Shown piece after piece: positions 53,435-55,835 of a DNA stretch of 64,000 bases. The stretch's first letter is position 1. Each line of letters begins with the position of its first letter. The stretch covers positions 496,001 through 560,000 of the forward strand of contig NZ_JACZCQ010000006.1 in the NCBI RefSeq assembly GCF_014904705.1, given 5' to 3'. The notes under the pieces were generated by a model, which saw only the letters and a program-made list of their open reading frames with translations, ran no database searches and was not told the origin of the DNA. Position numbers and translations under genes: made by a program. The DNA comes from Nisaea sediminum (GTDB lineage Bacteria; Pseudomonadota; Alphaproteobacteria; Thalassobaculales; Thalassobaculaceae).

Positions 53435-54283
53435 ATGACCGACCTGATTGACGACCTTGCCGATCAGCGCGAGGCCGAGAACGTGCCGTTCCAGGGATTG
53501 ATGGCCGGCAAGCGCGGCCTCGTCATGGGCGTCGCCAACGATCGCTCGATTGCCTGGGGCATTGCCTCCGCGGTCGCGGGCCAGGGGGCGGAACTCGCCT
53601 TCACCTATCAGAACGAGAGCCTGAAGAAGCGTGTCGAACCGCTGGCGGGGAGCGTCGGCTCCACGCTCGCGGTGATGTGCGACGTCGGCGATGACGACGC
53701 GCTCGACCGTGCCTTCGACGAGATCGGCACCGCTTGGGGCGGTCTCGATTTCGTGCTGCACGCCATCGCCTATTCGGACAAGGGCGAGCTGAAGGGGCGT
53801 TATGCCGATACCAGCCGCGAGAATTTTCTCAACACGCTGGATATCTCCTGCTTTTCCTTCACCAACATCGCGCGCCGCGCCTGGCCGCTGATGAAGGATG
53901 GCGGGAGCATGCTGACGCTGTCCTATCTCGGCGCCAACCGGACGACGCCGAACTACAATGTCATGGGAGTCGCGAAAGCCGCGCTCGAGGCCAGCGTGCG
54001 CTATCTCGCCGCCGATCTGGGCGAGCACGGGATCCGCGTCAACGCGATTTCGGCGGGCCCGATGAAGACGCTTGCCGGCTCGGCGATCGCCGATGCGCGC
54101 CACACCTTCCGCTTCGCCGAGAAGAATGCGCCGCTGAAGCGCAATGCGTCCCTCAACGAAGTCGGGCAGGCCGGGCTTTATCTGCTGAGCGATCTTTCGA
54201 CCGGGGTCACCGGCGAGATTCATTATGTCGACGGCGGTTTCCACACCGTCGCCATTCCCAAGCCGGATCGCGAGGAAGAATAG
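53435..54283 (+). CDS. fabI: Enoyl-ACP reductase I
   Basis: A 282-residue NADH-dependent SDR-type enoyl-ACP reductase. Typical are GLVMGVANDRSIAWGIA, the catalytic Tyr-x6-Lys in YNVMGVAKA, and the late LSDLSTGVTGEIHYVDGGFHTV. It has an N-terminal extension of about 25 residues. It completes each elongation cycle. GGAGGGGCGAGCGGG precedes ATG. It ends fabA-fabB-fabI and converges with the HTH gene (9-bp gap). Confidence 0.95.
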   Translation: MTDLIDDLADQREAENVPFQGLMAGKRGLVMGVANDRSIAWGIASAVAGQGAELAFTYQNESLKKRVEPLAGSVGSTLAVMCDVGDDDALDRAFDEIGTAWGGLDFVLHAIAYSDKGELKGRYADTSRENFLNTLDISCFSFTNIARRAWPLMKDGGSMLTLSYLGANRTTPNYNVMGVAKAALEASVRYLAADLGEHGIRVNAISAGPMKTLAGSAIADARHTFRFAEKNAPLKRNASLNEVGQAGLYLLSDLSTGVTGEIHYVDGGFHTVAIPKPDREEE

Positions 54284-54292
54284 AGGGCTGTA

Positions 54293-55162
54293 TCAGGGAC
54301 GGCGGGTTCTGAGGTCGACGACGCCTTCGCCGCCGCCCGGCTCGTATCCCGGAAGCTTTTTCTGCAGCAGGTCGACGGCCAGGCCGTTCGTCTGCGGGCG
54401 GGTGATGCTGAGGATCTTCGGCAATCCGTCCTTGGACTCGAACGGGAACAGCAGGCGCAGGAACCGCCGCTCCTCTCCATGCGCGTAATTGCGGTGCACG
54501 ATGGCAAGGTTCGGCCACTGGGTTTCGCGGCAGACGAGATAATCCTCAAGCTGACAGCCCCGCAGGGCCTCGTCATCGAGCTCGGCGAACTTCATCCCCG
54601 TAATGTCGGCACCTTTCCACATACCGGTGCCGTTATCCCAGTGCTCGATGAAGAAGGCGTTCGGATCGTCCTCACCGACATTGAAGATATGGATCGCGCA
54701 TTGCGGCGCCAGCGCCCGTAGCACGGCGATCTTGAATTTCGTCTCGAGCAGCCGGCCGTCCGGTTCGCGCACTTTATTTATATAGGCCGCGCAACGCTCC
54801 ACCTGGTCCGGGTCGAGCCCGTGCAGCATCTCATCGCGCACATAGATCTTCCGGCTGCGGCTGAGGTCGCTTTCCCAGATCTTGTATCCGATGACCGGAT
54901 CGTTCTTTGCGGGGACGATCAGCTTCTCGTTCGCGTCGTCGCTCGCAGGCTCCCAATCCTCCGGGATGACCTCGTCGAGCCGCTGAAGGGTCTTCAGCGA
55001 CGCCTCGAATTCCGGGCTGTCGATATCTTTCAGAAGAGTATCGGAAATCCCTGCCGCCGAGGCGAACTTGTACTTCCGTATTCCCGACTCGAGGTAATAG
55101 CGGTGGCAGCGGTGCCGCAGCTCCGCTTCGAGTTGAGATATCGCTTTCTTGTACCGACCCAT
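54293..55162 (-). CDS. HTH regulator with PAS-like C-terminal domain
   Basis: A 289-residue protein. The N-terminus (about residues 10-65, RYYLESGIRKYKFASAAGISDTLLKDIDSPEFEASLKTLQRLDEVIP) looks like a phage-repressor/XRE-type helix-turn-helix. The C-terminal half (about 150-270, with IEHWDNGTGMWKGADITGMKF, LEDYLVCRE and FLRLLFPFESKDGLPKILSI) resembles the PAS-type sensory domain frequent in Rhodospirillales. Two 20-bp palindromes lie 12-54 bp before its ATG, and a third before the divergent RHH gene, so it probably regulates itself and that gene. No prophage genes are nearby. The domain calls are from pattern recognition. Confidence 0.7.
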   Translation of the reverse strand: MGRYKKAISQLEAELRHRCHRYYLESGIRKYKFASAAGISDTLLKDIDSPEFEASLKTLQRLDEVIPEDWEPASDDANEKLIVPAKNDPVIGYKIWESDLSRSRKIYVRDEMLHGLDPDQVERCAAYINKVREPDGRLLETKFKIAVLRALAPQCAIHIFNVGEDDPNAFFIEHWDNGTGMWKGADITGMKFAELDDEALRGCQLEDYLVCRETQWPNLAIVHRNYAHGEERRFLRLLFPFESKDGLPKILSITRPQTNGLAVDLLQKKLPGYEPGGGEGVVDLRTRRP

Positions 55163-55173
55163 ACTGAAAGTCT

Positions 55174-55193
55174 ATTCCCATTTTTCTGGGAAT
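55174..55193. promoter_or_regulatory. Palindromic operator, copy 1
   Basis: ATTCCCATTTTTCTGGGAAT: perfect 7-bp arms ATTCCCA/TGGGAAT with a TTTTTC spacer, 11 bp upstream of the HTH-PAS gene start. It recurs at 55197-55216 and 55357-55376 and was not seen elsewhere in the window. Confidence 0.75.
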
Positions 55194-55196
55194 GCA

Positions 55197-55216
55197 ATTT
55201 CCATTTTTTTGGGAAT
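55197..55216. promoter_or_regulatory. Palindromic operator, copy 2
   Basis: ATTTCCATTTTTTTGGGAAT: 18 of 20 bases agree with copy 1, and it begins 23 bp from copy 1, about two DNA turns, suggesting cooperative binding near the HTH-PAS promoter. Confidence 0.7.
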
Positions 55217-55356
55217 TTTTTGCCAGGGCTGAAAATCACACGAAACAGACTGAATAATTTTTATCCCATAAAAACAATATGTTAGATTCATTTTGTGTAC
55301 ATAGGTATGCAAAATCAGCACGCTAGACGCGTAGCCTAAACAATTTACGCTTGCGC

Positions 55357-55376
55357 TTTCCCATTTTTCTGGGAAT
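55357..55376. promoter_or_regulatory. Palindromic operator, copy 3
   Basis: TTTCCCATTTTTCTGGGAAT: 19 of 20 bases agree with copy 1. It lies 39 bp before the ATG of the ribbon-helix-helix gene, on the other side of the 253-bp divergent gap. Confidence 0.75.
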
Positions 55377-55415
55377 AGTGACACTCATGAATGCCCTACT
55401 TACTGGAGACACCTC

Positions 55416-55835
55416 ATGGCAGACAGCTTCAAACCGTCGGGACAGGGTAAAGACATATTCAATTCGGCCCTGAAGACGGTGGAAGACGGGGATAACGACG
55501 CGAGCCGCATGGTGCGCCGTCACTTCCGTCTGGAGAACCGGCGGACGAGCATCTGCCTGCATCCCGAGGAGTGGGACATGTTCGACATGGTGTCGAAGCG
55601 GCTCGGCTATGACGTCAAGGCGCTGATCAACGAAATCGACCGGACCCGTGGCGACAGCTCGGTTCCGTCCGCGATGCGGGTTTTCATGCTGGGATACTGG
55701 CGTGATCTGGCGCGGATGAACGCCGGCCGTGCGGCTCAGGCGAGCGCAGCCACCAGGGAAGGTTCGTCGGTGATGACCGCGTCCACGCCCCACGCGATCA
55801 AGGTCGCGGCGCGCAGCGGATCGTTCACGGTATAA
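55416..55835 (+). CDS. Ribbon-helix-helix domain protein
   Basis: A 139-residue protein. The core FRLENRRTSICLHPEEWDMFDMVSKRLGYDVKALINEIDRTR fits the RHH_4-type ribbon-helix-helix domain of alphaproteobacteria (DNA-binding in RHH repressors, sometimes protein-binding). The C-terminal 33 residues (from 55736 on) are read over the 3' end of the convergent GDPD gene, so they look like an extension past a lost stop codon. GGAG precedes the ATG, and a palindromic operator lies 39 bp upstream. Target not known. Confidence 0.82.
   Translation: MADSFKPSGQGKDIFNSALKTVEDGDNDASRMVRRHFRLENRRTSICLHPEEWDMFDMVSKRLGYDVKALINEIDRTRGDSSVPSAMRVFMLGYWRDLARMNAGRAAQASAATREGSSVMTASTPHAIKVAARSGSFTV

Follow-up and report, generated by a model that had tools for sequence, protein, structure and literature searches.

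Divergent gene pairs that share a short intergenic gap with repeated palindromes raise a simple question: which protein reads the palindromes, and to what effect? We address it for a gap in a marine bacterium of the genus Nisaea, located between a gene for a regulator with an HTH and a PAS-like domain (HTH-PAS) and a gene for a ribbon-helix-helix (RHH) protein. The window referred to below is the whole 64,000-nucleotide stretch of DNA that was analysed, and the features of the locus are collected in Table 1.

Table 1. Coordinates of the genes, candidate operators and proposed promoters at the HTH-PAS/RHH locus (window positions)
Feature	Position	Strand	Description
HTH-PAS regulator gene	54293..55162	-	289 aa; HTH by family profile, PAS-like by predicted fold
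Intergenic gap of the divergent HTH-PAS/RHH pair	55163-55415		253 bp
Proposed HTH-PAS core promoter	55169..55197	-	TTGCAT (55197-55192), 17-bp spacer, TAGACT (55174-55169)
Palindrome 1, candidate proximal operator of the HTH-PAS gene	55174..55193	+	ATTCCCATTTTTCTGGGAAT, exact pattern
Palindrome 2, candidate distal operator of the HTH-PAS gene	55197..55216	+	2 mismatches to ATTCCCATTTTTCTGGGAAT
Proposed RHH core promoter	55351..55379	+	TTGCGC (55351-55356), 17-bp spacer, AATAGT (55374-55379)
Palindrome 3, candidate operator in the RHH promoter	55357..55376	+	1 mismatch to ATTCCCATTTTTCTGGGAAT
RHH_4 (ribbon-helix-helix) gene	55416..55835	+	139 aa; Pfam PF13467

Three palindromes confined to one gap

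A sequence-only reading of the window had reported three near-identical palindromes at 55174, 55197 (2 mismatches) and 55357 (1 mismatch) and had seen no further copies there. Scanning the window for ATTCCCATTTTTCTGGGAAT with up to 3 mismatches recovers these three and nothing else, all on the plus strand, and 100 dinucleotide-preserving shuffles of the window gave zero matches at the same threshold. The statement extends to the whole genome (22 contigs, 5,019,686 bases or 5.02 Mb, 98.83% complete): the motif scan that had been suggested as a check found no extra copies at ≤3 mismatches, the only matches being the same three palindromes, and a reversed-pattern control gave 0 matches. The palindrome observation is real and not a product of chance.

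In each unit, two 6-bp arms flank an A/T-rich centre, which is also 6 bp long. The arms of palindromes 1 and 3 are perfect (TTCCCA/TGGGAA); palindrome 2 carries a single arm mismatch (TTTCCA/TGGGAA), which is identical in all five Nisaea genomes. The start-to-start distances are 23 bp from palindrome 1 to palindrome 2 and 160 bp from palindrome 2 to palindrome 3. Palindromes 1 and 2 sit 11 and 34 bp above the HTH-PAS ATG (55162, minus strand), and palindrome 3 ends 39 bp ahead of the RHH ATG at 55416.

The looser pattern TTCCCA-N6-TGGGAA, with up to 2 mismatches, occurs at 96 places against 90 for its reversed control, so no wider regulon is visible. That the palindromes belong to a third, unlinked regulator is highly improbable; more sites would usually be expected of such a protein than the three (≤3 mismatches) that the genome holds, all of them in this gap.

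Conservation of the locus in Nisaea

The locus was compared across five Nisaea genomes and 93 other genomes. The order fabI, HTH-PAS, RHH, GDPD, pnp is identical in all five Nisaea genomes, the fab and pnp names being our reading of the gene sequences and GDPD a Pfam assignment. HTH-PAS orthologues (80-100% identical) are present in each of the five, and among the 93 other genomes the HTH-PAS search matched just two, G018 at 34% identity and G086 in the HTH part alone. All five Nisaea genomes contain exactly three palindromes, each inside the HTH-PAS/RHH gap. At ≤2 mismatches the 93 non-Nisaea genomes yielded 14 palindrome matches in 12 genomes, each with 2 mismatches, about as often as the reversed control, which matched 13 times in 10 genomes.

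Across the alignment of the five genomes, the arms are invariant at 36/36 columns and the centres at 15/18, compared with 90/199 of the other gap columns. The difference between arms and the rest of the gap gives a Fisher p of 1.2e-11, and the arm count is reached by 1 of 252 circular shifts. Because the central part of the gap has largely diverged, conservation of the palindromes does not merely reflect recent ancestry. The sites are thus specific to the start of their own gene and kept with that gene, as for an autorepressor. The sequence-only reading had named loss of the palindromes where the pair is kept, and abundant copies elsewhere, as observations that would count against it; neither was found, since the palindromes are retained wherever the pair occurs (5/5 Nisaea genomes) and have no further genomic copy at ≤3 mismatches.

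Beyond the palindromes, a further stretch upstream of the RHH promoter, 55285..55350 on the plus strand, is also partly kept. The palindromes do not account for this stretch, which contains an imperfect dyad, ATTTTGTGTAC/GTATGCAAAAT (55290-55315), and might be bound by another regulator or by the RHH protein.

The genes around the pair, fabB, fabI, GDPD and pnp, are also present in relatives, in agreement with the earlier statement that no phage genes surround the locus. Neither the HTH-PAS nor the RHH protein has a PHROG match at E≤0.01, and with no phage genes nearby the region does not resemble a prophage repressor region. A phage or defence origin was rejected, as neither PHROG nor PADLOC gave matches at E≤0.01.

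Domain assignment of the two proteins

Both products had been called putatively DNA-binding from the sequence, and profile searches bear this out. For the window HTH-PAS protein, NCBIfam gives no match and no Pfam family scores above its cut-off. A profile built from 12 family members (alignment A2), compared with proteins of solved structure, nevertheless places a Cro/CI-type HTH of the XRE/HTH_3 class at approximately residues 14-71, with matches to SinR (E 1.4e-5), an MBF (7.4e-5), C.BclI (0.002) and HipB(Lp) (0.006), and weaker matches to the lac repressor (E 0.07) and P22 c2 (E 0.26). In single-sequence Pfam searches the window protein has no HTH match, and its paralogue L016 reaches HTH_3 at E 0.018.

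The AlphaFold model of the HTH-PAS protein (mean pLDDT 81.0) has, by predicted secondary structure, a PAS-like domain at approximately residues 90-257, followed by a low-confidence tail (271-289). All 50 of the Foldseek matches listed for it are PAS/LOV-type structures, the best at E 7.5e-5 and probability 1.00. The predicted structure therefore places the C-terminal half in the PAS fold, and the sensory PAS-like domain claimed earlier is upheld at the level of predicted fold. VIA Z values for the model are ≤8.0, a level that the tool calls common, and for this reason we call the domain PAS-like and give it no subfamily or ligand name.

The RHH protein is a member of RHH_4 (PF13467), scoring 42.9 bits against a cut-off of 25 (E 5.1e-11). 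Over its last 33 residues (100 bp, 55736-55835) its frame overlaps the convergent GDPD gene at the 3' end of the latter, and in all five Nisaea genomes this extension stays open (alignment A4). The orthologue in G006, a relative considered below, is shorter, with 103 aa counted from its ATG or 110 aa from a TTG.

Candidate promoters and the proposed circuit

The spacer of the proposed HTH-PAS promoter lies within palindrome 1, and that of the proposed RHH promoter holds most of palindrome 3. At the HTH-PAS promoter, TTGCAT, TAnnnT and a distance of 6-7 nt from the -10 element to the ATG are found in 5/5 Nisaea genomes. The RHH -35 candidate reads TTGCGC in four of the five and TTGCGT in G001. 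It should be mentioned that both proposed promoters in the window match the consensus at 7/12 positions, a score that other hexamer pairs of the region also reach, and that a consensus promoter scan reported neither of them.

In the window, 6 nt separate the proposed HTH-PAS -10 element from the ATG, and the mRNA may therefore be leaderless (55160-55174). Between palindrome 1 and the HTH-PAS ATG no clear ribosome-binding site is seen in G000, G001 or G004; in G002 and G003 an AAGG lies 8 nt ahead of the ATG. Were the transcript to start further upstream, it would include palindrome 1, only 11 nt from the ATG and with no clear ribosome-binding site between, and the palindromes could then act as hairpins of the 5' leader RNA, with a stem of 6-7 bp, instead of serving as DNA sites. 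We give this very little weight: one and the same unit precedes two divergent genes, the A/T-rich centres are nearly constant, and the arm mismatch of palindrome 2 would be a C-A mismatch in the HTH-sense RNA, the same in 5/5 genomes. Rfam has no match at E≤0.1 within 55000-55500, by which a known RNA family there was also rejected.

With the palindromes taken as DNA sites, the sequence-only reading had proposed that the HTH-PAS (or the RHH) protein controls both genes. This idea appears broadly right, and the evidence now points more to HTH-PAS than to RHH as the putative binder, and to repression as the putative outcome. On balance we favour autorepression by the HTH-PAS protein, which would act through the two palindromes at the start of its own gene and, through the one in the RHH promoter, would also control the RHH gene. 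Such a protein fits how many sites there are and where they lie; it also fits the fold class and, to some extent, the relatives. Binding, dimerisation, promoter positions, repression and signal are all parts of a circuit that we infer, as follows. The HTH-PAS protein would be a dimeric cytoplasmic one-component regulator, with its XRE-like HTH at the N-terminus and its PAS-like sensor at the C-terminus. One dimer would occupy each 18-bp site, TTCCCA-N6(A/T-rich)-TGGGAA, with one recognition helix per arm, and the A-tract centre would be read through DNA shape. The two tandem sites would cover the HTH-PAS start region, and since their 23-bp spacing is about two helical turns, two dimers could lie on nearly the same face of the DNA. 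The third site would fall between the likely -35 and -10 elements of the RHH gene. Bound protein could then block RNA polymerase at both promoters, giving negative autoregulation together with control of RHH, and the PAS-like domain on meeting its signal might release or tighten repression.

A variant, in which the HTH-PAS protein binds the same sites and represses itself but activates the RHH gene, or in which a ligand switches the sign, seems to us unlikely. Activated promoters often match the consensus poorly, and poor consensus matches are what the proposed promoters offer. The placement of the RHH site and the proximal HTH site in the inferred -35/-10 spacers, however, favours repression, and MerR-type activators, which do act from the spacer, are of another fold. 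A precedent for activation is the PAS-HTH protein VqmA, which activates its target promoter (PMC8284805).

Other HTH-PAS family loci

If the HTH-PAS protein is the binder, its relatives offer a view of the sites at other loci. The 6-6-6 geometry (arm, centre, arm) had been noticed by eye at these family loci before any counting. We then chose five loci (L011, L014, L009, L013 and L017), each to represent another group of the family, with groups drawn by eye from alignment A2; L018, at a contig end, was left out of the site scan. An exact A/T-centred 6-6-6 site is present within 250 bp upstream at two of the five loci and absent at three. At least two such loci arose in 0.1% of 2000 shuffle sets, and among other spacings exact A/T-rich sites were found at 2/5 loci for spacing 3 and 1/5 for spacing 4. 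One site, on contig C15 of G000, reads TGCGTA-TTTTTT-TACGCA and is found again, one mismatch apart, at the related locus of G003; the other, on C262 of G018, reads CGTGCA-AAAAAT-TGCACG. Neither arm pattern has a second exact match in the genome concerned, and with ≤1 mismatch allowed both patterns occur at a frequency not above, or little above, the reversed controls.

Over nine upstream regions, two of them from the window's own group, 6 exact 6-6-6 sites were counted against 0.87 expected, and the maximum among 60 shuffle sets was as high as this count. Imperfect sites are found at L014 (one mismatch, centre 4/6 A/T), at L013 (two sites with one mismatch each, 5/6 A/T) and, seen by eye, at L009, where the weaker TGTGCA-ATTTTT-TGCATG with two mismatches adjoins the gene start. 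No convincing 6-6-6 site is seen upstream of L016 or L017. As controls, an exact A/T-rich 6-6-6 site lies within 250 bp upstream of 3/112 window ORFs of at least 200 aa, one being the HTH gene itself, some ORFs of this set being antisense and probably not real genes; among RHH homologues, 2/32 carry an exact site in the 400 bp ahead of the gene, with unrelated letters. Since three of the five loci have no site, spacing 3 does equally well, the geometry was noticed by eye, and the shuffle and reversed controls stand as given, an operator geometry shared across the family is suggestive but not firm.

A second feature of these loci concerns the other end of the gene. At 6/8 other family loci (L009, L011, L012, L014, L016 and L018, from Nisaea genomes and from G018) the HTH-PAS gene shares 108-162 nt at its 3' end with a convergent gene that encodes 236-268 aa; among the longest ORFs listed for L013 and L017 no such gene was seen. 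Four of the six proteins were searched and gave no Pfam match. One has a GNAT-like predicted fold, its structural matches including FeeM and acyl-homoserine-lactone synthases among many acetyltransferases. In the window copy fabI occupies the place of this convergent gene; the HTH-PAS and fabI genes are arranged tail to tail, with 9 bp separating their stop codons (54283-54293).

These loci may point to an uncharacterised family of XRE-PAS sensors in which the members' private operators would share a geometry, with arm letters that change along with the recognition helix, and in which several members would be locked to a convergent, 3'-overlapping gene for a GNAT-like acyltransferase, the window copy having been rewired to an RHH regulator. 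We put this forward tentatively, as a proposal that is more likely wrong in some part than right. An HTH-PAS family with candidate private operators and a GNAT-like partner is nevertheless a more interesting lead than the window circuit. For this uncharacterised family, the window supplies an exact three-site candidate operator, unique in its genome, which makes binding and ligand directly testable, and the differing candidate sites of the family members would give a natural specificity series.

The RHH protein as a possible alternative binder

The RHH gene also adjoins the sites, and the RHH protein could bind the palindromes and repress both genes while the HTH-PAS protein acts elsewhere. 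The relative G006 bears on this reading. It carries fabI, RHH, GDPD and pnp in order, and the HTH search gave no match in it. In its 227-bp gap upstream of RHH, counterparts of palindromes 1 and 2 are absent, and a scan at ≤2 mismatches found no palindrome. At 3 mismatches, a degenerate site, TTCCCT-CATCCA-AGAGAA, appears at the place of palindrome 3, retaining 9/12 arm bases and 5/6 pairs; a score of at least 9 arises somewhere in the gap in 151/2000 shuffles. Near the aligned place of the RHH promoter the best candidate in G006 is TTGTTT-17-TATAGT, with 8/12 consensus matches. Given the degenerate site at the matching place, G006 was dropped as a clean control for RHH without HTH and without palindrome. 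The site may have decayed from an operator, may be the precursor of one, or may have arisen by chance; as evidence on the binder, G006 is ambiguous.

That a dyad persists at the RHH promoter in a genome with RHH and no HTH gene would suit an RHH binder, but this dyad differs at 3/12 arm bases and its centre is not A/T-rich. Two of the three palindromes, moreover, lie at the HTH-PAS start, two other HTH-PAS loci carry sites of the same geometry, and 2 of the 32 RHH homologues have such a site. We consider the RHH protein a doubtful candidate, less likely as the binder than the HTH-PAS protein.

Comparison with known systems

The HTH of the family has its best profile matches in SinR and, further down, in a restriction-modification C protein (E values above). 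The matched chains are short (69-111 residues), and they presumably lack a PAS domain, in contrast to the window protein.

In lambdoid phages, tandem sites about two turns apart lie between divergent genes, and 434-type operators have a 6-bp centre spacing (ACAA-N6-TTGT). The window locus resembles the lambdoid repressors (434, P22 c2, lambda CI) in its XRE-type HTH, its short dyad with an A/T-rich centre, and its layout, a divergent gene pair that encloses tandem sites spaced by about two turns. It differs from them in that the locus is not phage, the partner is RHH_4 rather than Cro, and the sensor is PAS-like, where lambdoid repressors have a self-cleaving C-terminal domain; P22 c2 itself is matched by the profile only at E 0.26. 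Central A-tracts raise the operator affinity of the 434 and P22 repressors (PMC3317979).

On the sensor side, the Pfam family PAS_5 (PF07310) is approached by one remote profile match, L067, which reaches E 3.1e-4 with 21 bits against a cut-off of 22. The window protein, on the other hand, has no match to PAS_5 at E≤1, and L060 likewise has none, so the window protein is not assigned to it. VqmA, a Vibrio quorum-sensing receptor, is likewise a cytoplasmic regulator with PAS and HTH domains, and contributes three chains to the 50 structural matches listed, at Z 7.6-7.7, a level that the tool calls common. It differs from the window protein in its reversed domain order, in activating vqmR, and in an HTH of another type than the XRE-like HTH here. 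Its PAS domain dimerises and senses a ligand, and the protein activates its target promoter (PMC8284805).

In the part of the open-access literature surveyed, no description of the HTH-PAS/RHH pair or of RHH_4 function was found. Set beside these systems, the window pair is best regarded as ordinary, an undescribed example of a familiar type of circuit in which local autoregulation is combined with control of a neighbour.
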